Of a stretch of DNA of 64,000 bases, positions 15,375 to 43,683 are shown in pieces. The position numbers and the translations under genes are program-made. The first letter of the stretch is position 1; each line of letters opens with the position of its first letter. The notes beneath the pieces are model-generated. The model worked only from the letters and a program-made list of their open reading frames with translations, was not told the origin of the DNA and did no database searches. This stretch comes from Utricularia gibba (lineage: Eukaryota > Streptophyta > Magnoliopsida > Lamiales > Lentibulariaceae), in assembly GCA_002189035.1 (NCBI GenBank), contig NEEC01000002.1, positions 1,674,001 to 1,738,000 of the forward strand, read 5' to 3'.

Positions 15375-18300
15375 ATGGCGTGTATCTACATTCCGGTTCA
15401 GAATTCAGAGGAAGAGGTGAGAGTCGCGCTTGATCAACTACCCCGTGACGCGACTGACATTCTCGATATTCTTAAGGCGGAGCAAGCTCCTCTTGACCTT
15501 TGGCTTATAATTGCGGTTAGTCTTGTATCCTGAGCTGATATGCATTGCACACATGTTTCTCAGTTTATTAGGAATGAACTTGAATTCGGAGTGTGTATTC
15601 ATGCCGTTTTAACGCCCATATATGCCACAAGTTCAATGAATAGAGATAATTTGAGTTTGGCTGCCAGGGGAGGGCGGGTGTAGGCTTGTGTTTTAATTTT
15701 TTGTTTCATCAGTCTGGCTGAGTTTCTGTCTTCTGATGTAGAGGGAGTACTTCAAACAAGGCAAGATTGACCAATTCATACAGATATTAGAAGAAGGTTC
15801 TAGTCCTGGTAAATAGTATTGCTATTTTGATATTCTGCATTCCTTGTGAAATAAACACAGTAGCAAGCTTTGTTGTCACTAATATTTTTCTTTTATTTGT
15901 ATTAAATTAGCTCCACTAATTACATGGGACATTTCGCGCAGAGATTGATGAGTATTATGCAGATGTCAAATATGAAAGGATAGCGATACTAAATGCTTTG
16001 GGGCATATTACAGTTACATGTGGAAGTCTGAAATTGATGAAAAAAATAAGGATGAGTATTTTAGACAAGCCACAAAGCACTACAACAAGGCCTCCAGAAT
16101 TGACGTGCATGAACCATCAACCTGGGTTGGGAAAGGTAATGCTCTGCCATTACATTTTGTGACTCTACTGTATAATCTTATTTGATTCCTTTTCCACTTT
16201 TTATCCTTAATTCATCCTCAATGTTCAGATGATTACTGACCATACACATTCCAATGACGACAACATAGTTATGCTACAACTGTCATTTTAATCAAATAAA
16301 AAACACTATCTTAGAAGAATATTTGATACCAGGTCAACTTCTGCTGGCAAAAGGAGAGCTTGATCAAGCTTTTAATGCTTTCAAGATTGTGCTAGATGGT
16401 GATCGTGATAATGTTGCAGCTCTACTTGGACAGGTATCAGAACTTCTACTAGTCGTATATTCTTCTTCCATTTCATAAAATGATTGCAATCTGAGTTTCT
16501 TCACCGAAGATTACTAAGTTTGATCTGATGTTGAAGGAATCTTTCCATCTGATTATGTGTCGCTGACTCCTAATCTAAAGTCCAATGACGTGCCATTCTT
16601 CATTGGCAGGCTTGTGTTCACTTCACTCGTGGGAAATATGCTGATGCCCTTGAGCTATACAAGGTTTTCGAATCTTCCTCCACTCCTTTTGAATGCAATG
16701 CCTGATGTAACTGTGGATGTTAATTATACTCTAAGATGTTTTTGTCAGAGGGCACTGCAACTTTATCCAGTGATTCCCACTGTAAGAGTCGGAATAGGTC
16801 TCTGCCACTATAAGCTGGGCAGGCTTGGAAAAGCAAAGCAGGCATTTTATCGTGTTCTAGAGGCAAGGCACTCAGTACTGTTTTTTCCCAAAAAAGCGAA
16901 GCAGGCTTTTAGCATAGTTCATCAGACCCCTTAACGAAGTTCTTTTTCCAAGTTTATAAGAAAATCTTTATAATCCAAAGTGCAGCTAGATCCAGAAAAC
17001 ATAGATGCTCTTGTGGCACTTGGGATACTGGATTTGCAAACTAATGAAGGTCAGTATCTTTTTCGATTGTATAGCCAGGTCTTGATGCATGTTTTGGAGA
17101 TGGTGCAAGTATCGTATGATCCATAATATGTGGATACTGTAGTTTGAGACAAATAATGCTTGCAGCTTCTGGCATTAAAAATGGAATGAAGAAGATGCAG
17201 AGAGCCTTTGAGATATATCCATTGTGTGCAAATTCGCTGAACTACCTCGCAAATCATTTCTTCTTCACTGGCCAGCATTTCTTAGTTGAGCAATTGACTG
17301 AAGCTGCACTTTCGGTCACTATGCATGGGCCAACAAAGGCACATTCTTACTACAATTTGGCTCGCTCTTATCATAGCAAGGTTAATTATTTATTTATACT
17401 TTCCAAAGAATTCAGCTGATTGGTCAATGAGTTTGGTCGAACTTTCTAAGGACTCTCTTCATCTCTATCTTCCCCTTTTGTTTTATTTGTACCATCTATT
17501 ATGCTGTAAGTTTCATGTATTTGAGTTCCAGATTTTACTATTATCCTCATGTACTTGTGCTTTTTCTATTGCAGGGTGACTACGAACAAGCACGAAAGCA
17601 TTATATGCGATCAGTGGCTGAAAGTGGTAATCCACATGAATTTGTATTGCCTTATTATGGTATGTAAGTATTTATTTTTCCGTTTTCATAGACCCGACTA
17701 TTTTTTTTTTCATTTTTTCTATTTCTAAGTAGATTGTTCTATCAGCAGTATTCAGATCCTCATTACCTTTTTTTCCAAAGTATATGCTGATTTCACGCAC
17801 ATTTCTAATTGGGAATGGGAATAGGCCTTGGACAGGTTCAGTTGAAATTAGGAGACTGGCGGAATGCTTTGTCAAATTTCGAGAAGGTCTTGGAGGTACA
17901 ACCAGAAAATTGTGAGACATTGAAGGTATATGGAAATTAGATGCTCTTGAAATATTGAAGCTTCTTGCTTTAATGGGTTCATGATTTCTTTTTTGAGTAG
18001 GCCGTTGGATATATTTATGATCAGCTTGGGCAGAGTGATAAGGCAAAAGAGCTTTACAGGAAAGCCACCAAAATTAACCCTCAGGACCCCCAGGTGAGAG
18101 TTTCTTTTTTTAACTTTGTCAATAAAGCTTGATAAATGACTTAAAAAAATGAGTGTATAAATATGGTGTCTCCATGAACGTGTATTGCTACTTTCCAGAA
18201 GCCAGATGTCTCTCCAAAATGTGATCTTCATGTTATTTATAGGATTGAGATATGCACCATCATTGGATATGATGACGTGCAAACTTAGAATGCAGACGAT

Positions 18301-21300
18301 ATAGAGCCTTTTACAGACATCTGATCCCTTCAGTTAATGACAGATTTGTCAAGATAAATTGTCCTTTTTGGACATGTATGCACTTCATCTTCCATTTCTT
18401 GTTGTACAGGCATTTCTGGATCTTGGTGAGTTGCTAATTTCAATGGACATCAATGCTGCTTTGGATGCCTATAAAACAGTGAGTGTTTGTAGAATCATGC
18501 CTGATATTAGTGGTGAAAATTCAGCAGCTAAATGCATAGACTACATGTTGTTCATGATAAATGCACTACCTGTCGCTTATTATTATGTTTTTTGTATGCA
18601 GGCTTTCAATCTTATGAAAAAGGGAAATGAAGAAATACCGTTAAATCTGCTTAACAACATGGGGGTTCTCCATTTTGAAAGGGGAGAGCTGGAGGTTAGT
18701 GAAAGCCTTAAGAAGTTCGTTTCCATCGCTCAAAAATTTCTGTTTCTCTCTCTTTTTTTTCTAAACATAATTAAACTGGCTGGGGCTCCACAATGTCCTT
18801 TTTATTTGCAGCTTGCTGCTGAGGTATTTAAGGAAGCTTTAGGAGAGGGGATGTGGTGTAATTTCTGGGATTCTAAAAGTGAATCGATTGTTGACAAGAG
18901 ACATGCGGAATCAAATTTAACAGCACAAAATCCTGTGATTATGAACTTAATTTCGCATCCGTTGAAGGGTCTCCAACTGTTTCAACAAATTGATGAACAG
19001 GGTTTGCCCGTGGAACTGCCTTGGTATAAAGTATCAATATTGTTCAATTTAGGTCGAGTTTTGGAACAAATGCATGATACTGAACTGGCCAGTGCCTTAT
19101 ATCACTTAATTCTGTTCAAGGTTATAATTTTTTTGCTATCTATCTGTGATGAGTTCCCTTTTCACTAAATGTTTTTGGGTGTTAACCATTTATGATGCGC
19201 TTGAATTTTCTGTTTTCATAACTTTGAAGATGCAAATGACCTGCTTTTATCAGTATCACATAAATACTCTGCATGGTGCAAATTGACTACTTTTTCAAAA
19301 TTGCAGCATCCGGAATACACAGATGCTCATTTGAGACTTGCTGCAATTAAGAAAGCTGAAAACGATGTCCACATGAGTCTTGAACATGTATTTTTCTCTG
19401 AACCACCACGTTTTTATACTATTTTTCCGTCTCCTGTATACTGTGTTGTTTTCGCTTTTCTGAAAGAACTTCGTTGGCTATAGATTGGTAATGCACTAAA
19501 AGTGGATGAGAAGTGTGTTGATGCACTGTTAATGCGTGGTGATCTGGAGCTTAAGAATGATGACTGGGTCAAGGCAAAAGAAACGTTACGGGTGGCAAAG
19601 GACTTGACTGGAGAAAAAGATTTTTATGCTGCAGTTTGCCTGGTACGTGAAAACCTTGATATTGCTGTGTTAGCTACTTGCATATTTTATATTAGTATTA
19701 ACTGAATTTTCAAAATGTTTGCAACTGCTACTTTTATTCTTTTGTGTGGATAAAAGTGTAATTCGTTCATTTCAACCAGTTTTGAGTCCAAGAATAATAC
19801 GTCTTTTTCTGAAATGTAACAGCACTTTTATACTTCAGGGAAACTGGAACTACTTTGCAGCTAATAGAAATGAGAAAAGAGCTCCAAAGCTGGAGTCAAC
19901 TCATTATGAAAAAGCAAAAGAGCTCTACACGAAGGTACAGCTCTCTCATGTTGTGGCGCCTGGCTTTTGCAGAACCTAGACATTTTCTTCAATTTTTTGT
20001 TGCATTGGTTATCCAATTGTTGTGATTCGTGGTGAAGAATTGAATGTGCTTGTGGAACTTTCATTCACAATATTATCTCCATCATCTTTACATTGCTTTT
20101 GTTCACATTTATGCTCACTAACAAGACGAAAATTTTTTGTTGACATGACTCTTCATTATTTTTTTCAGGTTTTGCAGCAGCAACCTGCGAACCTCTATGC
20201 TGCAAATGGCGCTGGAATGGTATTTGCTGAAAAAGGTCAATTTGATATAGCAAAGGAGCTTTTTACACAGGTCTGTTTCTCTTCTCTGAACCGGTAATGG
20301 ATGATGTAAATCTCTTTATTTACGAACGTGAATTCATCTTTTGTCCAGGTCCAAGAAGCTGCTAGTGGAAGTTCTAATTTTCAAATGCCAGATGTGTGGA
20401 TCAACCTAGCCCATGTACACTTCGCTCAAGGAAATTTTGCCTTAGCAGTGAAGATGGTTAGCAGTTGATTATCTTAACACATTTTTAATAGATGAATCTT
20501 GAGACAGTTACTAACTTTTGCAATAACTTTGCAGTATGAAAATTGTTTGCGGAGATTCTACAATAATACTGATAGTCAAGTCCTTCTTTACCTAGCACGT
20601 ACACATTATGAAGCTGAACAGTGGCAAGACTGTAAGAAGACTTTATTAAGAGCTATCCACCTGGCTCCTTCAAATTACACATTGAGGTTTAATGCTGGAG
20701 TTGCGTTACAAAAATTCTCTGCCTCTACACTTCAAAAGACGAAAAGGACCCTTAGTGAGGTAAGGGCATTCTGTTTTCATCTTGTTCAGTTTGTAAATTA
20801 TGAATTTTAAATTTCTGTTACCTCATTATTGTTCTCCATCTCTCATAGTTTCTCGAATATGGCAGTTGCGAGCTACTGTAGCAGAGCTAAAAAATGCTGT
20901 CCGTTTATTCAGCATGCTATCTTCAGCTACAAACCTTCATTCTCATGGGTTTGATGAGAAGAAAATTGAAACTCACGTGGCGTATTGCGTGCACCTACTT
21001 GAAGCAGCAGTTGTATATTGTGACTTAGCTGAACGTGAAGAGATGCAGAATATTCAAAGAATGGAAGTGATGCGTCAAATGGAATTGGCAGATGAGTCAC
21101 GCCGAAAAGCAGAGGAACAGAGAAAAGTTCAGGTCATCGTCTGGCACTATTATTTTATAGATGTTTTCATCTTCATTTAGCCAAACTTTATCTCTGAGCA
21201 GATGGAAAAAAGAAAACTAGAGGATGAACTGAAACAAGTTATGCAACAAGAGAAAAACTTGGAGCGTATCAAGGTATGCATTTTCATTCTGTATGGGATG

Positions 21301-22009
21301 CTAAAAATGCGAATCTGTAAATGCTGGTTACGTCTGTGAAATTTAATGATCTTCAATCTCAATGAAGGAACAATGGAAGCATAGCTCGTCTAGTTCAAAA
21401 CGCAAAGAAAGGCACCATGCAGATGATGATGATGGGGGCCACAGTGAAAAAAGAAGAAGGAGAGGTGGTGGTAAGAGGAGGAAGAAGTTTAGGAAAGCAC
21501 ACTACGACTCAGATGAAGGTGATGCTGAGTTGGCAGATCATGATGTTGCGGATTACAGAGAGAGCTACAGAGGCCACAGAGATCATCAACCTGAGTACAG
21601 GGCTGATGTTGAAGATACAGAAGATGCTTCGCAAGGTCTTCTTGCAGCTGCTGGTTTAGATTCTGACGTTGAGGTATCTTTATTCATCACCCTCTCTTTC
21701 TCTTCCCTTTTGGGCGTTTTCTCCAAGCAAAGGCATCGAGCTTGTTCATTATGCTTTTCAAGGAAATGAATAGCTGGTCTTATGTCTTGAATGCTTCATA
21801 TCTAAAAAAGTTGGCCTGTTAATGCACAACCCTCCACTGTATCTGGCGATTGATTTGTCTCCTCATTGTTGAAGGATGCACCGGCAGAAGTTAGCCGGCG
21901 GAAAAGGGTATGGTCAGATTCAGATGAAGAGGTGCCAGAGGCTGTGGACATGCGAGTGAGTGATGGAGAGGGAAATGGAGTCGGAGGTGCAGCTGATGAC
22001 GAAGATTGA
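15375..22009 (+). CDS. CTR9: CTR9 subunit of the Paf1 complex (TPR protein; VIP6/ELF8 orthologue), one-base frameshift in exon 3
   Basis: Twenty-four exons, about 1083 aa if exon 3 is corrected; Arabidopsis VIP6 is close to 1090. Exons: 15375-15515, 15742-15808, 15942-16135, 16333-16433, 16610-16663, 16749-16862, 16986-17049, 17166-17380, 17575-17659, 17825-17925, 18001-18093, 18410-18478, 18602-18694, 18812-19120, 19307-19387, 19484-19642, 19839-19934, 20169-20270, 20349-20456, 20535-20759, 20866-21132, 21202-21273, 21368-21673, 21875-22009. It starts MACIYIPVQNSEEEVRVAL, continues through tandem TPR repeats, a Glu/Arg coiled coil (exons 21-22) and an acidic Ser/Asp-rich C-terminus. CTR9 is the scaffold of the nuclear Paf1 complex, needed for H3K4 methylation and FLC expression. 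In exon 3 the run of four G at 16000-16003 shifts the frame; a fifth G restores GAYYSYMWKSEI. Intron 6 seems to start with GC. Confidence 0.92.
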
Positions 22010-22407
22010 AGAAACCTTTTTTCGCTGATGGATCCCTTAGGCTTCATTGTAACGTATGTGTGCATAGTTGGCTTAGAGCCAGCACCTGTTGCTTGTTCAA
22101 TAGATTTACCACCACTTAGGGTTTAGCATCTTTATCAACTTCGAGCTAAAGGTTTCACTGTCAACTGAGCCCACAAAACTTAGAGGCTTTTAGTTGTAAA
22201 TGCACTATGCAATTAGAAGAAAAATGAATTGAAATTGCAGTTTCCAAACAATGCAGATAAACTGCTACATTTTGACATATACTAGCGTCAGACTTGCACC
22301 TGAACCTATGCTGGATTCATCTAGCATCTGTGCATCATACGGCTAAACTTGTTCCGCATGAACTAGATCTACTGGGGCTCGAGAACGATGAAATTGTTCC
22401 ATTCAAG
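22010..22407. other. Convergent 3' flanks
   Basis: About 400 bases between the CTR9 stop (+) and the stop of the next gene (-). Likely both 3' UTRs; no other feature seen. Confidence 0.5.
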
Positions 22408-23377
22408 TCACTGTTGATCAGCATGGGTAAATACGCCTTCCACTCTGTCAAGAGCCAACTCTAAACGCCCAGATTTCATGTTGAACACTGGCTCATCACT
22501 GCCCAAGCCCCTAAGAAAACAATGGCTCTCAGCAAATCATGGGATGCTGTGAAGACAAAGTGCAAGATGCTTCAGCTCGCAAACTTACCCACTAAATTCA
22601 GGAAGACTGTAATCAGCCCTCCACCCGAAACGGAAGTCCACTCCAGGGCACAAACCAAGGGATGTTTTGTTATAAATTCTCGTCGTCCTGTCAGTTCCCA
22701 AACTCGAGGTAACCTTCCATTTCCAACCTGTTTCATGATAATAAAAACTGTGGCTTACTCCTACCTGAAACGCACAGATGATGCAATCAGTTGATGAAAA
22801 ATGTGAGAAAAGACAAAGGTAGAGACCAAAGAATCAACCTGGAAAAGAAGGAACCTAGTCAAAGAAATCTTCTTAGAAACAAGCTGCACCTCTTGCCACA
22901 GGGGCTCGTATATGAACTTCCACTTCTGCGCGTGGGCTAGAGGTTTCAAAACCAGCTTGGCATGGTAATCATTCACATGGGGGGCATTATATAACTGCGC
23001 CATCAAACACGATTAGGAACTCCAAATGTTTTACAGAAACAGCATAAAAGGTTGATTTCACTTTAATTCAATAGCATTGTACCCAAAAATTTGTGAAATT
23101 TCTGTTCCACAACAAAATTCAAACCTAATCAACCAACAATTCGAATAAAAATGCAAGCACAATTGGTGGGACAACGTCAAATTTCCGCAGTACCCAAAAA
23201 TTCACCAACTGAACTAAAATGAAAATTGAAAGGTAAACACACACGTGCCTCTATGTTGACGCCGACGCGAAGTCCCTGAATTTCCTTTCTGAACTTCAAG
23301 AAGATTTCCGAGGGCACCAAATTCACTTTATAAAGCGCGTCGAACGAAGACGCCTCACCTCCCTCATTATCCTCCAT
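22408..23377 (-). CDS. Conserved plant protein of unknown function
   Basis: Four exons close in frame at 187 aa: 23249-23377, 22839-22994, 22589-22764, 22408-22510. Recognisable conserved blocks are LYKVNLVPSEIFLKFR (exon 1), LYNAPHVNDYHAKLVLKPL and WKFIYEPLWQEVQLVSKKI (exon 2), GWKWKVTSSLG, NKTSLGLCPGVDFRFGWRADYSLPEF (split across residues of exon 3) and a C-terminal GSDEPVFNMKSGRLELALDRVE. I recall similar single-copy proteins in other plants but cannot give a function. The pattern of alternating short hydrophobic strands with aromatic ends could fit a beta-rich or beta-barrel fold; that is a guess. No signal peptide or helix-type membrane segment is visible. The first intron appears to begin with GC (GAG|GCACGT), as no GT donor keeps the frame. 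Confidence 0.75.
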
Positions 23378-23981
23378 TTTCCCTTGAACCGATCTGATCG
23401 AATGCGAAAAGATGAGATGCTTTCAGGTTAATCCCCGTGATCCAGCACACAACAAACCTGGAGAATTCAACAGATCAGGCTCAGCCAATATGAGGGGGAC
23501 CTGATGCACAGTTGCACATAGCCAACTGCCTACCAGGAAAGATCCGAATGTTGTGTCAAGACGTTTTCAAACTTGGTCAAATTTGTCATTTATGGATAAA
23601 AAAAGGATTAATTATTTACACAGAAAAATAATTTTAATAATAAATATTAATAGAACGAGTGGGTGTATCTGATTAATATTCGACTTCAAAATCCAGACAA
23701 CAAAAATTAGAAAAAAAATGCAAACACAACCAGACAACAAAAACTTATTGTAAGGATCCTACTGAACTTTCCAAACAGCGGTTACTGCATTGTCTGATGT
23801 GTCCACAATGTACAGCAAACCCGTGTAGTAGTAGCAAGCGTCTCAGAGGGGGGATTCGACATCACATTCCCCTGTGACCAGACGCTGAGTGAGTGCTGAG
23901 GAATGCATTATTTACACATCACAAACATGTCTGTCTTCAGACCATGGCACTGAACTGAAGGATTTGTGGTAGCAGCTGCTG
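23378..23981. other. Promoter side of the unknown gene and 3' flank of the RRM-like gene
   Basis: About 600 bases between two minus-strand genes. 23570-23760 is AT-rich. No frame of interest seen. Confidence 0.45.
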
Positions 23982-24970
23982 CTACCGGAGAAGACGGTTG
24001 CTTGGTGCCGGCAACCCTGGCCGGCTGATGGGTGCAGGTGCACGGGGAACGAACTTTCTGACCCAAACATGCTTCCCCTTGATGGTGAACTTGGCTGTGT
24101 CTCTTCCATTGAGAATGGCATGGATGATGGATGGTGTTGAGAAGACAATTCTTGCATACAGAGCCTGCTTATCAGGAGGCTTCACCTCCTGCATGTGAAG
24201 TGACTCGATGCAGTCTCCAAACTGCGTGGTGAAATACTCTTTCACTTCATCTTCTGTCACTGGATACCCTTTTGAGAATGTGGCGAACATCGTCCGAGAA
24301 CACTTGACAATACTGGAATGACAGGAGGGGCATCTCCCTTCAGGTAGGAGAAGCTCTGAAATAAGGGATCCATGCTCATTTGGGCCATGGCTTTAGCAGA
24401 ATCAGGGATTGGAACTTCGGGTTGGCTGTTGATAGAGTCTGGGGGCTCATGGGAGGAGAGCAGAGCCGTTTCGCTGCAAGCCGCCGAGGCAGCATCACTG
24501 ATAAGGCTCTGGGCTGATGAGGTATCACCAGAACCACCATGACGTGCCATTTCCATGATATCAGAAAGTAGTGGGATATACAGAGAGCATAATGCAGTCT
24601 GGACATCATTGTAGACCTCTTGTCGAATTTCACGCAAGTATTGGAGGGAGATTTTACAGGGAAGGAGAATCCGTGTCAGAGGAATTTCATCAGCGGTTTC
24701 TAGAATTTGATAGGACTTATTGCCCACTATCTCGAGGCAACACAACGCCTCCTCAGCCAGTTGATTGATCACAGAGAGTCTAAGAGATAAGATCGTCGGT
24801 ATGATGCTGCAAATGCATGCCTGCTCCAGCCAGTGCCAAAAGCCCATAATATGCATACATTCCAAGGGGTTTCGACAAAGATCTTGAACCAGAATGGTGT
24901 AGAGATGCCGATCTCTTGTGTAGAAGACCTTGAATTCATCAACAGTCACTTCACAAATCGTGGGATCCAT
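23982..24970 (-). CDS. RRM-like domain protein of unknown function, frameshifted
   Basis: From the ATG at 24970 a single frame encodes about 230 residues that start MDPTICEVTVDEFKVFYTRD; the segment is helical, Leu/Ile-rich, then Ser/Pro-rich. A second frame (from about 24290 to the stop at 23982) encodes a compact RRM-like domain: MFATFSKGYPVTEDEVKEYF, then FGDCIESLHMQEV, LYARIVFSTPSIIHAILNG and KHVWVRKFVP. In homologues I recall, both parts belong to one protein and the RRM-like part is preceded by an acidic DDRTMF stretch. Here the two frames meet near 24290-24300 and joining them needs one extra base (or loss of 1 mod 3 bases in the past). Alternatives are two separate short proteins or a true loss-of-function allele. 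An RNA-binding role is inferred from the fold only. A 5' UTR intron probably ends just upstream. Confidence 0.7.
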
Positions 24971-27330
24971 GAAGACGGCGTGGAATTGATAAAGGCTGAT
25001 AAAAAAAACCATCTTTGTTTAGACAACAACGTTAGGAAACAAATCATAACGGGGGCGAACAGATTTCAAGGAAATGAAAGGAAGAGGCAAATATTCTAGT
25101 AAAGGGATCATAGATTCAAATGTCCAACACTGTAAGAATATCCAAAATCGACAAAAACTGTAATGCAACCAAGTACCCAGTGAATGTGAATTAACTAACA
25201 CAACAGAAAATCAAAGGGAGGGAAAACATTAAGAAAATTGCAGGAATCCACAAGAAAAATGCCTGAGCTCTCTGCATATACAAACGAAACTGACATTCAA
25301 GAAAATTGAAGAAACTAAAAGTTCATATCAAGATTGTTCTACAACACGGATCACAACCATTCGTTGATATGAAAAACAAGCAGACGGACATAACAAGTTA
25401 TATAGAAATATATACACGAGTTTTCAGAACAAATGAAGGAGACCTACCAGAGAAATTTTGTCCCACGGAATCTCTTTGTTGCAGAATGCCACAAACTGAC
25501 GCCTTTTTTATAGTCTGCTGAGCGATAAAGTTGAGGCAAAGTCATGAAATTTGGGTTCACTCATGAGCACAAACAAACAAATATTATTAATGCTGAGTTG
25601 GAATCATTCTGAAAAACCGTCTTTAGTTGGTTGTAGTAAATATATAGAAAATAACAGTAACATAACTGGAAAATTCTCATGGTTGATGTAACTCCATTAC
25701 AAAGTCGCTTAAGGATTCAAAATTATCAACACAAAAGAGAGAATGACGAAGTGAAAGAACAAGATTTTAGCCCAATATCAGATTTTCTAAGGATTCCCAA
25801 GAATGGGTAATAGAAATAAAGAATAAAGATTAAGGTTATAATCCCATCTTTTTCGTATCCTTAAAATAGGCAGCATAAAATATTTCTTTTTAACTTTTTT
25901 AACCCGAAAAGTCAGCCTCTGGATTTCTGAAATATATCACCTTGCATGTAATCTACAATCAAATAAGTTGGTATAGTTAAAAACAAAGAATGCCCTTGAG
26001 TAAAACTGTCAAAACACATCAACGACCTTGTTTCACCACCATCATCAAACTTAATAGAAATGATTAATATCTGACAGGAAGATGCTGAACTTTCAGCCAG
26101 AACTTGTAAAAGCTCAGAATTAAAGAAATCTCTCCTTAAAATATACCAGGCACGTCACAAGTCATCAATTGCAAATATCAGTAGACACTAATCTTAGATA
26201 TTTGCAAAGCTGAATGTTTTGTAATTCTTAAAATTTTTAAATTTCTTCATGCTCAGCAGAATGATTCCAACGAAATCACTTCAATATCTTACTCACTAAA
26301 AAATTCAAAAATCATGGCGCTGATTCACATCAAAAAGCTGGAAAAGGTGGATTTCAGAATGACAAATGAAAGCAGAATGTTCTGCAAATAGTAACTACAC
26401 CATTGCCGCAGCTGTATCATGAGATACACATCAGAAGAAATGGATAACAGAAAAAAAAAAAATCCCAACTCTCCATACAGCACCTTCATATCGCCAAGCA
26501 CCAAGCAGAAGAATTTCATTAGGAGCATCTGATGCACAAATTACCGACCAACTTTTTCAATACAACCGCTTCTGAAAACCATAGTCCAAGCAATCAGAAA
26601 AAAGGAAGATGAACTAACCTTCATACTTGACCTTATTCTGTACCCTTCAGTGTGTTGAAGAAAAGTTACTCTCCACCATTCAAATGCTGATTACAGGCTT
26701 TTTTTTATCATTGCAAAATTCCTGATATTGAAGGTCGCAAATTACAAAAAATCCATGAACAAAAAATTATCACAATGGAATTAAGGCACCAGAGCTTCAA
26801 ATCAGAGGTGCATCTCAGAAACACGGTTGACCTTCCAAATCATCATCCAGGACGTCTAGTGGCTCACTTCATACAAAACTGCTTCAGTTTGATTGAGGTT
26901 ACTCGATCCATCCCCTGGAGGGTATTTGTCTGTTAAAAGGAATTTAAAAAGAAATCGTGACTGCATCTAAAAGGTAAAGGTGAATCCACCTTCGTGTGAG
27001 GCATTCCGTTCAACTGCCTAAATAAGCGCAATACAAGTTTACATTCAGTGACTAGACACTACAGTCTTCAATCTCCTTCAGAAACAACAGCAGTGACCTT
27101 CAGACGGATGTCAAGACAAGGCAAACTTAAACGAAACCTTTTACCTAGATAAAGATCTGCAGAGTTCCAATAGTGGGGTGAAATAGCAAGAACCATCAAA
27201 CCGTAGAGGAACATAAGTCGGCCTTACTGTTTGGTTTGGCCCATTAACAGCAGGAACTAAAATTTATGCACCAATGGCACATATAAGAATACAGACCTCC
27301 GTGATGGAACATTGACAGCAACCAGTTGAA
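24971..27330. other. Long AT-rich non-coding stretch
   Basis: About 2.4 kb with no recognisable coding exon. The part near 24985-25520 may be a leader or 5' UTR intron of the RRM-like gene (a pyrimidine-rich acceptor lies just before its ATG on the minus strand). The right end is the 3' flank of the OXS3-like gene. I see no repeat structure or RNA gene. Confidence 0.45.
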
Positions 27331-28330
27331 TCAAACTGGCAGAGGAGGCAATGGTGGTGCGCTACATTTAGAAATGTCACCATTGCTGGTATAGGAGGAG
27401 TTGGTAGCCATTGAAATGCATATCATGCTTTTTGAATTGATTGGCCTTTTAGATAGGCCATCAATGCGGCTTTGAAACAAATGCCTAGTATTTGTACTAA
27501 AAAGTTGCTCAAAGCATAAGATTTTTGCGTTACCTAGTGCACGCATTTTCTGGCTTTGCGACATCTTTGATAGTGCCACATCAGATAGAGCGGTAAAAGA
27601 TCTACATTTACCACAACAAAAATTTGAGATGCCTCTCCTGGAATAAGTTCCTCACAATCAGCAAAGCATAACAGCACGAGGTAAAGAAAGAAAAAAATTC
27701 TTCCAATATGATGAAGAGACTGGGAACTTGCATCAGATTTGAAATTAAGAATGAAGAGAAAATAAGCAACTAAGTCAACACATCAAATGAAAAAATAGTT
27801 CATAGACGATCACATAACACGATCGCGACAGAATAAAAAGTTATACAGGGTAACAAGGATTCCTTTAGACACTAACGACTCAGTAATAAAAATCCACGGC
27901 CACTAGAATCCTTTAGAACAAACAGAAATATGAAGGGATAACAAACCTTATAAAGGTCTCTTACCTGATAATTCATGCTTCTCTCGAATACTGTGACTGA
28001 TCACAAAGACAAATTCTTCCAAACAAACAGTAAAGCCACGTACTTCCCCGGCAAAACTTCCTCCGGAGCACCGAAATTGCCAAGAACCCCACATTTATGC
28101 TCACTCTGCACCTCGTCCTCATATCCACACCCATGGAAAAAACTCTTCGTTGCTTTCGCCGATTGAAGAAGTGGATGAGGAGGAGGCAGAACCATCCCGC
28201 TCCTCCGTCAAATGCTCCGGCCCCCTGGGAACTCGGCGGAGCCATAAATGGAGGGGTGGTTGAGAACGCGTCCCGGGACGTCGATCCGGGGATCCGCGCC
28301 GGATTTGGTTGGCCCCAATGCGATGGGCAT
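27331..28330 (-). CDS. OXS3-like (OXIDATIVE STRESS 3 family) protein, exon 1 with two offsetting frameshifts
   Basis: Two exons: 28044-28330 and 27331-27637. Exon 2 is intact and diagnostic: KRGISNFCCGKCRSFTALSDV, then a basic stretch, GLSKRPINSKSM and the terminal APPLPPLP. Exon 1 holds the serine patch SSSSTSSIGESNEE and EVQSEH...EEVLPGK, both OXS3 hallmarks, but they are in different frames. Reading from the ATG at 28330 requires one extra G in the five-G run (28221-28225) and one T fewer in the six-T run (28137-28142, minus strand); the two changes cancel and give about 197 aa. OXS3-like proteins are nuclear and raise tolerance to heavy-metal and oxidative stress, probably through chromatin or stress granules. 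The intact exon 2 suggests sequence errors rather than decay. Confidence 0.75.
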
Positions 28331-29593
28331 CTCCGTCACTCCGTGGAAGGACAAGCAAATGAATCTGCGACACTTTTTGATCGCCTTCCCATGATCTTTT
28401 TATCCAAACCACGAATTCTTTGATCATTAAATAATTAAAGAATTATTATTAAAATAAAATTTAATAAAAAATAATATTATCTGTATTTTTTAATGTTCAT
28501 ATCTATTTAAATTTGTGTTAATCAAAACAATGTTTCTTATATGTTAAAGCAGTGTTATGTAAAATTTTTTAAACCTGTTTTTACTTTTCAAAAGTAAAAA
28601 TAGTTTTGTTTTAGAACACATTTAATTGTAAAAATAATTCTATTAAAAATACTTTTAAAATTATAACTACAAAAATTATTTTTGAAAAAATAAGGAAATA
28701 ATTACTTTTAAGATGTGTTTTAGAAAATTTGTATCACCTATTTTTACTTTTATAAAATTAAAAATACTTTTAATTTAGAACACTATCTATTTTTACTTCT
28801 ATTTTTTTAAAAAATATTTTTGGTATTATACTTCAAAAATTGTTTTTGCAAAAATAGAGAAAATCTACTTTTACATTCTATTTTTACTTTTCAATATAAA
28901 TCCACAAGTTTTTTCATTATTTTCCTAAAACACCTATTTTTTATTTCTACTTTTATAAATTATTTATATTTATACTTTTTAATTTTTCAAAAATAAAAAT
29001 AGATTTTACAAATTTTCTAGAACATACATTTATTTTGTATTTCTACTTTTCAAAAGTAATTTTGAAAATTAAAAATAGGTTTCAAAAATTTTCCAGAACA
29101 CAACTTAAATTTATAATAATTTTATTCTAAGATAATTAAATATTTCTAATTTCAATAATTTCATTATGGAAATATAAAAATTTGTGATTAAACATAATAT
29201 TAAATTCTATAGAAATTATTATATGCATTTAAAATGCGCAACCCATTAGCTGCCCTCGAAAATCGAGAGAGCAGAGCTCGCCGGAAACTTTACGATGTTT
29301 CGATGGCGCCGGCGATGATCATTGCGTGTTACCGGAGGTCGAGAAAATGCAGGCATCGCATTGAGAGAAAATAACAGAGATAAGGAGGGAGACTCGGACT
29401 GTGGTACGTTTTTGGAAGGAACGCAAACAAATTCTGGCCCATAGAGTCAAGGGAGCTTAAGGCCCAGATGTAGGCCCGTGGACTCAGAATCGCCGATTGA
29501 TTTTGATTCAGCATACCGCGGATTCGTTCCTGCTCTTCGTGTCTTTACTCTTCTTGAAGAATCCCTCGTTCTAAACTTTGGCGGTCGGAGAGG
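28331..29593. other. Divergent intergenic region, largely AT-rich repeat
   Basis: The region between the OXS3-like gene (-) and the BAP31-like gene (+). Most of 28430-29220 is a dense AT-rich repeat (described separately); 29230-29593 has normal composition and is the presumed BAP31-like promoter and leader. Confidence 0.5.
28545..29105. repeat. AT-rich inverted-repeat element cluster (nested or multiple copies), related to 47682-47910
   Basis: The stretch carries several copies of a module of the form GTTTTAGAAAATTT...TTTTTACTTTT CAAAAGTAAAAATAG and its reverse complement, for example at 28550-28610, 28715-28790 and 29035-29103. About 100 bases at 28550-28680 match the reverse complement of 47770-47912 closely (shared core AATTCTATTAAAAAT, then AAAATTATAACTA). 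This suggests one family of small non-autonomous elements that inserted more than once here, perhaps nested. No coding capacity. Confidence 0.55.
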
Positions 29594-30870: not shown

Positions 30871-31392
30871 CTAAGTATTAGAATGCTGTCCTTGATCTCG
30901 GCCTTCAAGCTCCACTCTCCCACGACAAACAGGGCAGACATTCTTCACTACAAGCCATCTCTTGATGCACGCAGCATGATACTCGTGCAAGCAACCCAGA
31001 ATTCCAATCACGCCGTCGTTGAGGTCGTCTTGGCAAATGGCACAGATCTCGGGCTCCCCATCTTCATCTCCGGTATGACTACTCCTCTTCAGTCTCATAC
31101 TCTGCATTATCATTTCTTCATACAGCTCGCCGTCAGCTTCAGCCGCCTCGTTCACCGTCTCTTCATTTAAACCATCCTCATCTGCTTCCGCGACAGCAGC
31201 ATGAAGAATCCGGAGTTCGTCAGAAGAAAAATAGCTGAGGTCTCCGGTGGGCGATGCCGGAACCCACACCCTAGTTATATAGCCTTCGTGGTTCACTTGT
31301 AAACCAGGGACGTAGAACCCCCTGAAGACGGGTACGTACATCGTCGGAGGGTAGAAGAGAAGCCTTCGTGGTTCAATTGTAAATGCCGCCAT
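30871..31392 (-). CDS. RING-H2 finger protein, probable E3 ubiquitin ligase
   Basis: Intronless, 173 aa, intact. The C-terminal RING-H2 is complete: CAICQDDLNDG (first two Cys), then LGCLHEYHAACIKRWL carrying the C, H, H and C ligands, and NVCPVC with the last pair, at about residues 116-159. The first 110 residues are acidic in the middle (EADEDGLNEE, EAAEADGE) and carry no membrane segment, so the protein is probably cytosolic or nuclear. Closest in type to BIG BROTHER/ATL-like short RING-H2 proteins without a transmembrane helix; the substrate is unknown. It diverges from COG3. Confidence 0.88.
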   Translation of the reverse strand: MAAFTIEPRRLLFYPPTMYVPVFRGFYVPGLQVNHEGYITRVWVPASPTGDLSYFSSDELRILHAAVAEADEDGLNEETVNEAAEADGELYEEMIMQSMRLKRSSHTGDEDGEPEICAICQDDLNDGVIGILGCLHEYHAACIKRWLVVKNVCPVCRGRVELEGRDQGQHSNT

Positions 31393-32075
31393 GATCAGGG
31401 GAACAGAAGAGAAGCAGTTTACTGTCGGAGGATGGATGATGATGTGAAGAAGATGAACACCCTGATTTTAATAGGCTTGTCTTGCGATAAACAAGGAAGT
31501 ATGTATTTTTTTTGGTCAGTTAAACAAGGAAGTATGTGGTTAAATAAGGAAATATTACCCATTAATGTGAATGTTTCTATTAATATATTAAAAAATCAAT
31601 CTAGTCCAGATATCTAAACTATTTTTTTATTTAATCATATTTAATTCATTATTTGTTATGTTAATAATTTAAATTAACTGTTTTTTCAATTGATTAAATG
31701 ATATTTAGTTTATTGTAAAAATATTAGGAACAATAAAAATTTATTTTTCGAATATGATATTTAATACACGAGGAAAGTAAATATAAAAACAAATATTTTA
31801 TAATGATATTTAAAAAAATGAAGCAAACAGCACCTCCACAGGGAACTCCGACGGTTGTACTTAGCAGCAGAAGAAGGAAGACATGAGGAAGATGAAACGG
31901 TAGAAGCGATGTGCGATCTACTTCTAGGTTTGTTCATTTGATTACCGGGGAGAGGTGTCTTGAGTGCACGTCAACTGAAACCCGGGAGGCAGATATTTTC
32001 CGACGAATTCTGGAGAGATTGAATCGAGGATCGTTTTTTGCGGATTTCGGTGCCTTTTGATTCAACAAACGTATA
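31393..32075. promoter_or_regulatory. Divergent region between RING-H2 (-) and COG3 (+)
   Basis: About 680 bases. 31560-31810 is AT-rich; 31830-32075 is more balanced and is the likely COG3 leader. No specific regulatory motif was identified. Confidence 0.4.
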
Positions 32076-35000: not shown

Positions 35001-37849
35001 GATGCAGGTCGCTTTTCTACCACATTCACTCGTCTTCATTATGATGAAAATGTGAACAAGGGACTAGTTATTATTCAAAAATCATTTATGATTGGCTTAA
35101 CATGGTTTCTCTTACGTTACAAAGTACAATTTACTGTTTTTTCTATGTGACCTTGAACAAACATGTGAATGCAGGCATGCCAGCTGGAACATCAACTTTT
35201 TGCTTATTTTTTCCCCTCATCTTCCGAGGATATTTCTAGTTTGAATCCTCTAATAGATCCACTGTAAGTGAATTTAATTTTTGGATCTGGTTGAGGTTGG
35301 CATTTTCTTTCTTGAAGTGTGTTTTGGGAGCCAATGGAATGCCAAGACCCCTGGTAATCATGCTGGAAAATTTCGGTCAAATGAATTGATGTGCGCAAGT
35401 GCAAGACATTTCCTTGTTTTCAGAAGTTATATAAATTTACCTAGTGGGACTTCTCTCTACTGTGGTTGACATTCATCTGAGTCACAAGGTCTCCTCCTGC
35501 TTCAGTCACATATCTATCAAAAAGTGAAACCTCTTCATCAATGTATTGCAGGTGCACCTACTTGTACGACACATTACGTCCGAGACTTATTCACGAAGTC
35601 AACCTGGATATTCTTTGTGAGCTTGTTGACATTTTCAAAGTTGAGGTACTGGCAGAGCAGGTAAGTCGCCGGGGTGAGCATCTAGCAGGATTGCAGCCTA
35701 CCTTCGAGAGGACTTTGGCAGATGTTCATGAACGGCTAACCTTTCGTGCTAGGACCTACATACGTCATGAGGTATACCATTTTTGCAGATAAAGATTCCA
35801 TAATCACTTTCATGTTTCTTTCTACCTTTTTTTTTCTGAAATTTGTGTTTGAAATGAGCTAGGGAAGAGGAAGCCCCATGTGGTCAATTCCTGTAAAAGT
35901 TTTATTAGAATCGTGTTTCTGAAACTTTTATTGAAATTTTGTTTCATAGAATAGTAGGGTGCATTGTTAAATTTCTTTCTTCTATTTAGATTGCAAATTA
36001 TCTTCCTGTGGATGAAGACATTGATTACCCTGCAAAGCTGGAGCAATCTGCTGCTGCAGACTCAGAAGCATCATCTGTAGCTGCAGTTGCGGTAAAACAT
36101 TCATCCCATGTAGTACCAACTGCATGCATCAACCAGTTTCTTTGTTTTTCATTGATAATTTATTCTATTGTTTAATATAGAGTGGAAAAAAGCCGGATAT
36201 TTCTAAAACATGGTACCCTCCTCTGGAGAAAACGATATCGTGTCTATCCAAGCTCTATCGTTGCCTAGAACCTGCAGTTTTCACTGGGTTAGCACAGGTA
36301 ATGCTAGTATTTGGCATTCGTCTTCCTCATTGCATTGACTTATATTTTGCACTTTTCATTCACTTTGTTCACTTTTTTTTTTTTTTTTTACCAGGAAGCT
36401 GTTGAAGTTTGCTCCACATCCATTCAGGTGACTGCTTTTGGTTTTCATGTATTCTGTTCATATTGGGGGTGGGGAGGGGTTGTTATCTTATATTTCCACT
36501 GGAATAATTTTTTTATCTTTTTGGGCGAGTTATTGATTCGCATGCTTGATGTCGCAGAAAGCTAGCAAACAGATTGCAAAAAGATCATCTGTCATGGATT
36601 CTCAATTATTCCTCATTAAGTTTCTTCTCATCCTCAGAGAGCAGGTGGTTTTTATCTCACGTTCACGTCCAACAGAACTGAAAAAAAAAAAAAAAGATCA
36701 ATTCATTTCTTATTACATTGGTAGCTTGTTTGCAGATTGCACCATTTGAAATTGAATTTTCAGTTACGCATAAGGAGCTGGATTTCTCTCATTTATTGGT
36801 AAGCCACCTGGTGCTAATATCCCCTCTTGTCGAATTTGATTGCTGCATGGTTCGCAAAACCAATTGCGGACTCCTGCAGGAGCATCTAAGACGGATTCTC
36901 CGTGGCCAAGCTTCCTTATTTGAATGGACAAGATCGAGTTCATTGGCAAGAACCCTGTCCCCACGAGTTCTTGAAAGCCAGATAGATGCCAAGAAGGTAA
37001 AATGAGATATATCGCTTGCCACCCCTTCTTGTTTGCTGTCTATCTACTAACTAGTGATGAGATGAAATGAACCTCATGATGAATCGTCTCGATTCAGGAA
37101 CTGGAGAAAAGCCTCAAAGCCACCTGTGAGGAGTTCATCATGTCAGTGACGAAGCTGATTGTGGAACCAATGCTGTCATTCGTGACAAAGGTCCTTTGAC
37201 TCGATTACCCTCCCTCGGTAGTAATTACCGTGTTATTGCATGATCTTTGAAAAAGTATCGTCTGTTCATCCAGGTAACTGCGGTGAAACAAACATTGTAT
37301 TCAGCCAGCCAAAATCCAAAGGTGGACTCCGCTATCAGTAAGCCTGTTAAAGACCACGCCTTCGCATCACCAGAAAAAATCGCCGAGATTGTGGAGAAGG
37401 TAAGTTTACACATTCACCCGCACTGGAGTTCCAACAGAATCTTAGTCTCATACTGAGTCGACATCATGGTGATCTTGAGACAGGTGCACGCCGCTATTCA
37501 ACAAGAGCTGGAGGGTGTAGCAACTAAAATGAAGCTTTATCTTCAGAGCCCTGCAACACGTGCTATACTCTTCAAACCCATCAAGTACGCCACCCTTTTT
37601 GCTCAACTGCATGCATCATCACCGTTTTTATCTTGAAAAGAAAGAAAGAAAACCTTCATAAAGCACACATGTTGCGTTGATTTAGCTGTTCGTTGAATCG
37701 TTTGGTTCATTCGCAGGACGAATATCGTTGAAGCTCATGCCCAGGTGCAGTCTATCCTTAAGTTAGAGTACCCTCCTGAAGACGTTGAGGACCTCGTCAG
37801 AGCGGTCGAGCCGGAAGATCTGCAGGCCCGACTTGACAACCTCATGTGA
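32076..37849 (+). CDS. COG3: Conserved oligomeric Golgi complex subunit 3
   Basis: Twenty-five exons, all in frame, 783 aa, about the length of the Arabidopsis protein. Exons: 32076-32144, 32299-32382, 32476-32583, 33095-33139, 33212-33286, 33399-33494, 33725-33802, 33960-34045, 34148-34214, 34349-34411, 34485-34586, 34697-34801, 34915-35007, 35175-35263, 35552-35771, 35990-36091, 36181-36297, 36395-36427, 36558-36644, 36736-36798, 36880-36996, 37098-37190, 37274-37399, 37484-37584, 37717-37849. The N-terminal half holds the COG3/Sec34 coiled-coil core ([39 protein letters not shown]), followed by the helical [28 protein letters not shown] and [16 protein letters not shown] blocks. COG3 is part of lobe A of the COG tether for retrograde transport within the Golgi. 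No frameshift was found. Confidence 0.95.
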
Positions 37850-38364
37850 ATCCTAACCCGACGCCACGACCGGTCTTCTTTATTTAGCAAGTCCAAAGTT
37901 CTCATCAGCTGAATCATACTTTTTATGTTCCGTCAGTCATGCGACGGATCCGAAAACAAACTAGAGGACTTCGCTGCATCCCCTATTTACTCGGTTTCGT
38001 TTTATTAATATCAGATAATGGAAACCGAAATTATTTTTTATTAATCAATTTTTACGGAAAAAAGTATTAAAGAATGCTAACCGAAATTACACATGCATCA
38101 TTAAAAGATAGCATCAGAACAACACAAATGTAATGACAAAATTTCTCGAAATTTCAGATTTCGGGTTTTTTTGTGAAACAAAAATATTCATGCAATTTCT
38201 CTGAAATTTGACCAAAATTTGAAATTGTCGGTAGAACATAATCATGATTTAGCATCACACATTTTCCACAATATTCAAACCATTCAAAAATCAAATCCCG
38301 AAATGAGTGTCATGAGAGGAAACATGTTAAATCAGTCATATGAAAATAAGAGGCTAACTAACCT
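37850..38364. other. Convergent 3' flanks of COG3 and SAUR
   Basis: About 500 bases; 37990-38300 is AT-rich with TTTCTCGAAATTTC-like inverted bits. Only short, unsupported frames. Confidence 0.45.
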
Positions 38365-38806
38365 TCAGGTGCTAGTAGAATCAGCTCTCTGGTTGTTGTG
38401 ATATTCCATCCGCTGAAGAAGATACTTGAACGTCTCGATATCGCAAGGATTGTGAGCCCACCTCGACAATCAAATCCAAACTCCTCCACCTTATCCAGCA
38501 GTTTTTTGAACAGGGATCACTAAGATAGGTGGCAGGGATGATGAACCTCCGATGCTCTGGGCCAACATAAACAGCAAGAGATCCTCTGGGTATATCGCTG
38601 GGCATCTCTAGACTGGGACAACTTTCTTCATCTGAGTCATAATGCAAGCACGCGTTGTTTATTCTCCAACTCACCTCTGGAGAAATGCCTCTTTGCGGGG
38701 AATCAGGATCCTTGGGAGCATGTGCCACGTTTTGCCATCTTTGAACGAACTCCTTGAGTCTGGTGATCTGTCTTAATCCTGTGGTCTTCGTCTTCCTTCA
38801 CTCCAT
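38365..38806 (-). CDS. SAUR-type auxin-responsive protein, with two single-base frameshifts and an unresolved start
   Basis: The SAUR core is clear but split over frames. The first part reads RLKEFVQRWQNV, then DSDEESCPS, then SDIPRGSLAVYVGPEHRRFIIPATYLSDP. It continues only if one C is added to the three-C run (GGG at 38513-38515 on the plus strand), giving LFKKLLDKVEEFGFDCRGGLTI. One more C at 38447-38448 then restores PCDIETFKYLLQRM and a stop at 38365. Both restored joints match the SAUR consensus (LSxxLFKxLL; TIPCxxETF). At the 5' end the first ATG (38806) is followed by GAG and an in-frame TGA, so the true start is unclear. SAUR proteins inhibit PP2C.D phosphatases and promote cell expansion; this longer-N-terminus type is usually auxin-insensitive or constitutive. 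Either sequence errors or a decaying copy. Confidence 0.75.
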
Positions 38807-40246
38807 TTCTCAGGCATTCATTCTATGGGCAACAAAAAAGAAAAAAAAAATAGCATCAAGGACATCCAAGGCTGAATGTATCTCAGGAAACAGGATATAT
38901 ACAGCTGATTCATCCTTATTTTATAATTCATCTAGTTAATATTGTTAAGTCTTATGCAAAACTCAACCACGCCAGCCAGATTCAATTAATCAAGAGACTC
39001 CCGAAACAGAGATTAAACGCCTCAAAGCTGCTTTTCACCATTCACATTTTACCACGCATTTCATCGACAATGAGTATGCATTTTCCAGATGAAGCGATCC
39101 AGATTTAGCCACATGTAAACTAATAATTGCAATCAAAGGTGTTAGCAACACATGGAATTTGGCATCAACGAAGACAGTACCGAGATTTTCCACAAAAAAA
39201 TGACACCATCGTTCGTTATTCGAGTTCCAGTAATCGTAAAACGTATATCTAAAGCAAAACAAATAATATCTCCACCTACCAAAACGGACAAGGAAACCGT
39301 ATTCAGGCGATGAGAAAAAGCGAAGAAACCATCGAATTCAGGTACCGACGACTTGCAGCAGAAGGCGAAAAAATGTAAAACCGTCACGGCGTATTTTACG
39401 AGGGAGGAGTCTCGGCGGAGGATTCGATCAACTCGAGGCGTAATTTTCGCAAACGTGAAGCGCATGCATGCTTTTTGCTTCCTCATCCCATCCCTTTCCC
39501 TCTTCTTTTGTTTATTTATTTGCATCTATTTTTACACTATTTTTATTTACTATTTGTAGCGGTTGGTCTCCACGGTTTTCCCACTCATTAAAAACTCTTT
39601 TTTTATTTTACTATTTCATTCAATTAACCTGTAAATCATTTGGAATGATCAAGTTAAAATCATTTACTCCTCGATCCTAATTATTATTATTGACTAAATA
39701 GCAAGGCGAATGCAAATATTATAGCTGGTGTTCTCAAGCAACCGAAACCCTCTAGAATATCCTGGAGCATTCTAGAATGTTCACCATCGCCAAACCACTT
39801 TTTTGCTTTGTGAGGTAGGACAAAAACCTATGGGGGAAGCAGTTCTTTTTTTTGAAGATAGATAGGCATCGCAGATTTACTCCAAAATGACACAAGAGAT
39901 TCAATTCTCAAGGAAATGTAATAGTTCAGTGGGCAAGTAACATGGAAAATCTGACCACAAATTTCTTTTTTTAAGATGTCGAAAGCTCAGGATAGCTGCT
40001 GTGCTGTGGTGTTATTACATCGACGAGGAGGATACACACAAAACCCACCCAGTGGTCCGGTTCATGTCCAAGTTCAAGAAAACTAAAGCAGCTTTTACCT
40101 GGGAGGGAGGATGAGACTGCGTTGCAGTGTTTCTGAAAATTGGGGAAGACAAAGCAACACAGGTGACATAAGGATCCACCAAAACGATACTTTTGAACAA
40201 GGATGTGGGTTGTTTACCTTGAACTTCATTTTTCAGAATGAAAAAG
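38807..40246. other. Intergenic region upstream of SAUR and downstream of KASII
   Basis: About 1.4 kb. 39350-39480 has balanced composition and could be a 5' UTR exon of the SAUR transcript on the minus strand. The region contains a heat shock element array at 39754-39783 (separate entry). From about 39990 on, it is the probable KASII 3' UTR. No coding exon is supported. Confidence 0.45.
39754..39783. promoter_or_regulatory. Heat shock element, six alternating pentamers
   Basis: Read directly: six uninterrupted 5-base units aGAAt, aTCCt, gGAGc, aTTCt, aGAAt, gTTCa. Units 1, 4, 5 and 6 match nGAAn/nTTCn perfectly; units 2 and 3 each differ by one base. This is a strong binding site for trimeric heat shock factors. 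It lies about 950 bases upstream of the SAUR frame and about 275 bases upstream of the possible SAUR leader near 39480; which gene it serves is inferred. Confidence 0.7.
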
Positions 40247-43200
40247 CTACTTGTAAGGGGCGAATAGGATCGATGAGTTGTGGCCACCGAAGCCGAACGA
40301 GTTAGACAACGCCACTTTGATATCTAGCTTCTCCTTTCTCTGCCCCACTAGCACTTTTGTATCCTGCGCATGGATAAATAAACAGTGGTTGGCAACACAA
40401 GCTAGGATGTGGAACCACGGCGCTACTAAGGAAGAAGGAAAAACGAAGCTTACCACAGCCTCATCAGGGTTTTCGAGATTGATATTTGGGTGAATCCAGC
40501 CTCTCCTGATGGCCTTCAAGAGAAGACGTGTCAGGTCCCTTCAGCAACCGACTTTTAGAGGTTCGTGCACATAAACAGTCTAAAAGGTACCTGCACAGTT
40601 GCCACAGCCTCAACCGCACCAGCAGCTCCGAGAAGGTGTCCAGTCATGGATTTTGTGGAATTCACTCTTAACTGCATTATCATAATGAAGGAAAGTTGGT
40701 TTCTGCTCTCACCGGAAACACTCGGTAGTACGACAGAAATAGTTGATTGAAGTTAAGACCACAGGGTTCTCTCCAAAGCAATGTAGAAGGGCTCGATATT
40801 CCTTGATATCCCCTGCTTGAGTTGATGTTGCATGCGCATTTATATAATTCACATCTTTTCTAGATACCCCTGATTGAGCTAGAGCCTTCTCCACACACAA
40901 AATGATACCTTTGCCTAATAGTGGGCAATAACACAAACGTGAGGATGCATAAAGCATGACCAAAAGAGTTGATAAATCATAGTAAACCTTCTGGATGAGG
41001 CTCTGTCATATGATGTGCATCACAAGTGAAGCTTCCACCAAGAAACTCGGCGTAGATGGTTGCGCCTCGGTTCTGCTCAACACGAAGCAGAAAACAATTA
41101 TCCTAAGAAACATAATAAATACAAGGATAACATTTATCACTTCATGAGCAAGGGCACCTTAGCATGTTCAAGTTCCTCTAGTAGCAAAACACCAGCACCT
41201 TCTCCCATAACAAATCCATCACGACTCTGCTAAGATGAGAAATTAAGCTACCATTAGAGAGACGAATGAGGGAGTAATGTAGCAATGTTAATATGGATGG
41301 GTTAGTTTAATGTACGAATGATGAGCCCATAGCATTTATGTGGATAAAAGAGCATTACACTATCCCAGGGGCATGAAGCTTTTTTAGGATCATTATTTCT
41401 CTGTGACAAGGCTCGGCATGCAACAAAGCCCCCTAATGCTGCATAAAGATTTTCAAACCAGTGAACTTGCATTTTAGCAACGGAAAACTGGGTGGAATTC
41501 TGAAAAGAATAGGGAAGGACATTCACCAACAGGGATAATTGTCGCATCTGAGCCACCACAAAGCATCAGATCCTGTAAATGACTCAAGCGTCAGTTGACA
41601 ATTAAATAAAAAGGCATCAGAATTTAAGGATGTTTACAGAGTTGATTGATCAGTGGATACAGGAAAATTCACTTTGAGAATAAGAAAAGCTGAATCACTT
41701 ACAGCTTCACCTCTGATTATGTGATTAGCAGCATTCAGTATACAGTAGTTTCCAGTTGCACAAGCTGTAGATATTGAATAGTTTGGCCCCATCCATCCCT
41801 ATTACAACAATGTTTTTAAGTCATTTTGTCATCCCATCAGTATCCTGGGACAGAATGGGAAGGTCTAACCAAATCCATTGCGAGAAGAGCAGACCCCATA
41901 TTTGTTGTAGTGGAAGGTACAACGAAGGGGTTCAACTTCTTATATGAAATCCTTAAAGCCTCGATCGCATCACTAAAAACCTGTCAACACTAAGAAGACT
42001 GAGAAAACACCAGAGAACTGAAGACAAGATGTTTGCATGTGGCTGTAGTATACTTTACCAAAATACTTGACAGGGTATACAACTTGGATATTTCAACTAC
42101 GTCTAGCCATTTTAAAACATGGATGATTTCATTTAGATGACATCAATGTCATTCTCCATAACGAGCCCAGAAAGCACAATATTTAAATTCCATAAAACAA
42201 ATACTAATGAGCACATCATTATTATCATGCAATAGATATACTTACTTTCATACCACCCATACCCGAGCCAATGAGTACACCACATTTTGCTTTATTTAAT
42301 TCTTTTAGCACATCTTCAGTAATTCCAGCATCCACTAAGGCCTTCTTGCCAGCTGTTTGCATATAAAGAATGAATTTGTCCATTCTCTTCGAAAGTTTTG
42401 GAGCAATCCAACCATCAGTTGAGAATGACTTGATCTCCCCAGCTATTCTCTACAATTGTAACCTTCATAATTAAAATCAAATAACCATGAAAAATCCATA
42501 CAACAGAAATGATGAGGTATACATACAGTGGGAAAGCTAGAGCAATCAAATCCCTCTATCTCACTAATGCCGCTGACCCCCTCCAGGAGGTTATCGTAGA
42601 ATACATCTGGGTCATTCCCAAGTGGTGTCTCGACACCCATACCAGTCACTACCACCCGCCTCTGTCCGATTGGATGCTTTTTAGTAGGGGTAGCTTCCAT
42701 GACAGGATTTACAGGCATGGCCACAGCCGGCCCTATTATCCATGTGAAATCAATAAGGTAAATGACCTAGTGGTGCCCGAGAAAACAATTTTATGCAGCA
42801 ATATCTAGCACTGCCATGCTTACATGTTCACCAAAAGTGAATGACCAATTGAGGCAACAATAAGAAGGCATAAGATGCTGGAATGAAGATAGAAATTCGG
42901 AGGTTTACTTGAAAAAGCCAACTACTTACCGGGCCTATACAACACCATCCAGGAGAAAATAATACCAGAAAGAAAAAACATAATAATTAGCTCAATTCAT
43001 CATCCCTGATACCCTCCTGCTCTGAACAAACGTCCAGAAACTCAAAAAATACATCAACATTAGGAAAAGTGCGAAACCGAAATTGTGCCTTCTCCCGTAA
43101 GATCGAGCGGATTCATGCATAAAGTGTGAATAGAAAGAATAAAAAAAAAGATAATCCAGACAAGTTTACTAGAATCGAAACTCATTCCTGACGAATATAA

Positions 43201-43683
43201 AAACAAACACATCTGAAAAAATAAAATGAATCCCACCCTGAAGAACGGACTGAAAATCAAAATCAACTTCAACATCAATAAAAAAACCACAAAACCCCAC
43301 GCCGAATAGCCAGAAATCGCGTCAATTGCACAGACATAAAACAAAGACAATCAGTAAGTAGCACCAAAAATAAACTTAGCAAAATCACGAACCGGAAGTC
43401 GCCAAGGGGCGCATAACTCCCCTCTTTATCCGGCCACTCGATCCAAAATCAGTGACTAAATCAGAAACTGTCCAGAATTTACGGAAGTCATCACAAGGCC
43501 CAAAGTTAAAGACGGAGTTGATGCCACCACAATGAGCAGCAATCCCCTTCCCTCTGCGACCCGCCCCTTTCCTTGGCCAGAGCGCATTGTTCCCCCTACT
43601 GCAATACTAACATCCTTCTCAACATCATTCGACATGCATGCCGCTATTATCCACGAGCACAACACCGACGACCCCGCCGCCAT
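40247..43683 (-). CDS. KASII: Plastid 3-oxoacyl-[acyl-carrier-protein] synthase II (KASII), one-base frameshift in the transit-peptide exon
   Basis: Thirteen exons (minus): 43393-43683, 42527-42732, 42246-42449, 41870-41980, 41703-41798, 41527-41572, 41359-41438, 41158-41226, 40988-41072, 40760-40914, 40591-40671, 40454-40513, 40247-40363; about 533 aa. The catalytic triad is present: Cys in STACATGN, His in [12 protein letters not shown], His in [12 protein letters not shown], plus the C-terminal [12 protein letters not shown] loop. KASII extends palmitoyl-ACP to stearoyl-ACP in plastids and so controls the 16:0/18:0 ratio. Exon 1 begins [18 protein letters not shown], like other KASII transit peptides, but the five-G run at 43592-43596 (plus-strand C) puts the rest of the exon out of frame; one more G restores [15 protein letters not shown] and the run-on to exon 2. 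Exon 8 has a tandem acceptor (see findings). All other phases agree. Confidence 0.93.

Follow-up and report, generated by a model that had tools for sequence, protein, structure and literature searches.

Single-base frame breaks in conserved genes of a Utricularia gibba contig as very probable consensus errors of a long-read assembly

Have five conserved genes on one contig of the Utricularia gibba genome each lost their reading frame, or has the sequence been misread at a few bases? Within the window (the whole stretch of 64,000 nucleotides analysed here, positions 1,674,001 to 1,738,000 of NEEC01000002.1), a first-pass annotation had reported seven 1-base breaks in CTR9, an RRM-like gene, an OXS3-like gene, a SAUR gene and KASII, and had ascribed them to one common technical cause. 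The sequence at each of the seven sites was inspected together with its three-frame translation, and all were found at the coordinates below. All seven are 1-base events, six with one G or C missing (the RRM-like site counted) and one with an extra T. The observation is confirmed: the frame breaks are real in the given sequence.

The exon at 15942..16135 (+ strand) of CTR9, which encodes a TPR protein of the Paf1 complex, is broken once, at GGGG (16000..16003), where sequence and translation both place the run one G short. Its two frames join into a match to human CTR9 (PDB 9eh1_Q), and the alignment of the read-through is gapless across the joint. The RRM-like gene consists of one large exon (24030..24971, − strand) read in frames 1 and 0, with the break located at 24293..24299 by translation and by comparison with a paralog on contig C412 (L080). 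The best joint links VL to RTMFATFSKGYP and needs an additional C adjacent to the one in CTCGG, and the paralog passes through the joint in a single frame. Thus a site that had been described as not clearly in a run became somewhat more definite, a C missing beside a C, whereas the surplus T in the T6 run and the losses of G or C were found as described. The paralog (C412:914837-915552 region) has a frame break of its own upstream of its RRM-like part.

In the first exon of the OXS3-like gene (28040..28332, − strand), translation and a paralog place two breaks: a G5 run one base short at 28221..28225, and a T6 run with one T too many at 28137..28142. The paralog, L083 on contig C304, is intact and keeps one frame over both joints. 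The SAUR gene (38390..38800, − strand) is one C short in CCC at 38513..38515 and again in CC at 38447..38448, as judged by translation and by the score against Pfam PF02519, which rises from 32.2 bits as given to 77.4 bits when read through, with the domain covered. In KASII (3-oxoacyl-ACP synthase II; 40247..43683, − strand), the mature protein is clearly a ketoacyl synthase (PF00109/PF02801), and translation places a G5 run one base short at 43592..43596 in the transit-peptide exon. The earlier claim that conserved protein lies on both sides of each break and that the joints match the family held up through the SAUR score, the CTR9 alignment and the paralogs of the OXS3-like and RRM-like genes. 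The KASII joint is the softest of the seven, as it sits in a poorly conserved transit peptide and rests on open frames on both sides and on what we take to be motif resemblance. The interval that separates the OXS3-like gene from the next one holds an AT-rich stretch with nested inverted repeats (28545-29126), which resembles a foldback or MITE-type element; partial copies of it, about 40 or more, occur genome-wide at 74-93% identity.

For a genome-wide view, the same assembly (100.09 Mb in 516 contigs, the largest contig seen being 8.5 Mb) was searched for GRAS genes, a family whose proteins are usually encoded in one exon. The 25 GRAS domains that appeared complete in this search served to build a profile, with which all 41 loci were aligned in a frameshift-aware manner. 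Of the 41 genes, 16 proved to be broken, with about 23 breaks in approximately 45 kb of domain DNA, or roughly one per 2 kb; the two breaks counted in L064 depend on how a less distinct stretch is interpreted. Every break nets to −1 base, a two-base excess being counted as net −1 since it leads into the frame that a one-base loss gives. In-frame stops unexplained by a break are nearly absent, with few point-mutation stops, and most of the genes score normally for the family once the frame is followed.

Since the profile does not identify the missing base at silent positions, the run context of the breaks was tested instead. Within 10 bases of a GRAS break, the longest G/C run averaged 3.78, compared with 2.41 at random domain positions (none of 20,000 resamples was as extreme), whereas A/T runs near the breaks averaged 2.39 against 2.58 at random positions (P = 0.88). 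A G/C run of at least four bases lies near 57% of the breaks but near only 11% of positions, and five of the nine six-base G/C runs counted in GRAS domains sit at breaks.

The DELLA-type members are broken in a recurrent manner. The conserved GGPP motif is where L028, L029 and L030, which lie on three contigs, all lose their frame: GGTCCCCCAC, GGCCCCCCAC and CCCCGCGG, respectively, lack one G or C. The PAT1-type gene L027 carries two breaks beside the same motif; in these DELLA-type and PAT1-type genes, each GGPP-motif break is one or two G/C short. In the related DELLA-like genes L005 and L007, the motif is intact. The shared site is explained by a consensus that undercalls G/C runs, because the motif is G/C-rich; independent gene death would not choose one motif.

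Other families were hit to different degrees. Two of five large-exon HSP90 copies are broken, with three breaks that are all −1 (in runs TTTT, CCC and CCCC), and one of the broken genes is on the window's own contig (C451). In a KCS gene, one break was confirmed, GGG being one G short in the conserved MGCSAG motif. KCS genes overall have far fewer breaks than GRAS genes, so that the break rate is uneven. A tandem KCS-type cluster was observed at G000:C413:4947000-4997600, in which several genes are intact and several are truncated or carry stops. Furthermore, rpoB on contig C516 stays open in one frame over 1085 codons; the contig was taken as plastid and so as deeply covered, and the intact state of this one gene is consistent with depth-dependent error.

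Taken from the sequence, the seven breaks are very probably single-base errors that remained in the consensus of a long-read assembly. A short G/C run in the true sequence (less often an A/T run) would mostly be reported in the consensus as one base too few, and the undercalled run would shift the reading frame of an intact gene. Such a fault would act genome-wide, the five window genes being conserved ones in which it is visible, and we infer that the plant's reads carry the longer run. One-base indels at homopolymer runs, as expected of long-read error, were found at the 7 window sites and the 23 GRAS breaks, and GRAS, HSP90 and KCS genes were hit on many contigs. The single technical cause proposed in the first-pass annotation is strengthened by the recurrence of the net −1 signature at G/C runs in all three families and by the break of three DELLA-type genes at the same motif. 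The results support a wider scope than had been claimed, namely a property of the assembly as a whole, not peculiar to the five window genes. Against consensus error count the insertion at one of the seven window sites and the rate, which is uneven and, with about one break in 1-2 kb of some coding DNA, higher than would be expected of a deep PacBio consensus.

How much room does this leave for real frameshifts? The given sequence is, after all, broken, gene loss does occur in a compact plant genome that carries duplicates, and the GRAS copies L066 and L071 look partly decayed and may be real decayed genes. That each of the five window genes was broken by an event of its own, as a true pseudogene or a real frameshift allele, is nevertheless very unlikely. 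Nonsense changes, indels of both +1 and −1 and relaxed constraint would be expected of dying genes, whereas the GRAS breaks are net −1 only; overall, almost every break nets to −1 and lies at a short G/C run, and nonsense substitutions are few. Protein conservation is unchanged past each break, and SAUR regains its full family score. Moreover, the genes struck include ones under constraint: KASII, for which a protein search of the genome gave no second copy (other matches were at most about 70% identical and were read as KASI or mitochondrial KAS), HSP90 and the three DELLA-type genes broken at one motif. KASII, HSP90 and DELLA-type genes are needed by plants.

A collapsed consensus, in which the assembler mixed real length alleles of two haplotypes or recent duplicates, draws on the redundant or partly diverged small contigs that are present in the assembly, yet we regard it as more doubtful still. 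One GRAS locus, for example, is found on two contigs, as L013 (C316:29914-34041) and L014 (C412:852287-856414), and the next 10 kb of these contigs are divergent and rearranged, with 307 substitutions. Alleles should differ mostly by substitutions, whereas the two copies of the locus differ by 1 substitution and 11 gap openings over 4.1 kb, and mixing of alleles would not favour the shorter, frame-breaking form every time. The small contig C316 may simply be the poorer copy; as a general measure of error the pair was given little weight, because of the divergent neighbouring 10 kb. A probe of 600 bp spanning the CTR9 site matched a single place in the assembly, and genome protein searches gave no near-identical second copy of KASII, the RRM-like gene or the OXS3-like gene; the DNA self-searches over sites 2-7 (RRM-like to KASII) leave room for a second contig there, the 20-kb search having been dominated by a repeat. 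Least credible of all is that the short runs are real and that the frame is restored by programmed frameshifting, transcriptional slippage or RNA editing. Runs of five or six bases can be slippery and the coding sequence past the breaks is conserved, but many of the runs are only 2-4 bases long and lie in unrelated genes with varied motifs, for which a common signal would be needed and none is offered. Homologues are also intact at the same place, as in the OXS3-like and RRM-like paralogs and, for the DELLA-like genes, in L005 and L007. The weaker form, that some of the short runs are real, with frames restored by slippage in transcription or translation and a genome that tolerates many frameshifted G/C runs, is just as hard to credit.

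Residual consensus error also agrees with what is known of such assemblies. The PacBio assembly of U. gibba was made with HGAP and comprised 581 contigs with an N50 of 3.4 Mb at 88-fold coverage (PMC5793159); the sequence analysed here probably comes from that assembly. Homopolymer-associated indels are the main long-read error, deletion errors following runs of 2-8 bases (PMC12007338). The cases described in that work (Kastor) resemble ours, in that genes are split, and spurious frameshifted pseudogenes arise, where one base is deleted after a short homopolymer; however, they concern small bacterial genomes read mostly by nanopore, whereas the present case is a 100-Mb plant assembly with a bias to G/C runs. 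A further parallel is the pear reference Bartlett.DH_v2, also a plant long-read assembly with gene families damaged by indels, in which family members lost to unexpected indels were recovered by Illumina polishing (PMC9702816). There the correction was made with reads, whereas here the signature is taken from sequence alone. A literature search found no report of this indel error in U. gibba. The frame breaks are, on this explanation, no biological feature, and the effect is known in principle.

The consequences concern users of the genome. Where gene counts, family sizes, pseudogene lists or claims of gene loss are based on this assembly, some genes would be falsely broken, shortened or absent. 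The damage would be greatest in G/C-rich coding sequence, so that families with G/C-rich motifs, such as the GGPP motif of DELLA proteins, would more often be wrongly scored as lost. Apparent gene loss would thereby be inflated, and gene counts drawn from this genome should be corrected.

The window's own gene models illustrate the point. Ab initio models were poor with codon usage trained on GRAS genes and became usable after retraining. The broken CTR9 exon was then skipped by the automatic gene-structure model, the remaining modelled CTR9 exons being without frameshift, as had been anticipated in the warning that automated models here would suffer. The accompanying statement that other long genes of the window are clean held in part: COG3 and the CK1-like gene are without frameshift in gene models that are themselves incomplete, with several exons missed. 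The only frameshift that the gene models called, at 919, was rejected as false, the zinc-finger frame being intact there. At about 750-1220 on the − strand, the window holds an intact single-exon C2H2 zinc-finger gene with a QALGGH motif and a C-terminal LSLDLSL. Finally, contigs C1, C2, C409, C505 and C507 are sized in exact multiples of 500 (8,500,000; 6,192,500; 2,492,500; 3,452,500; and 642,500, respectively), which may reflect consensus calling or trimming in windows of fixed size.
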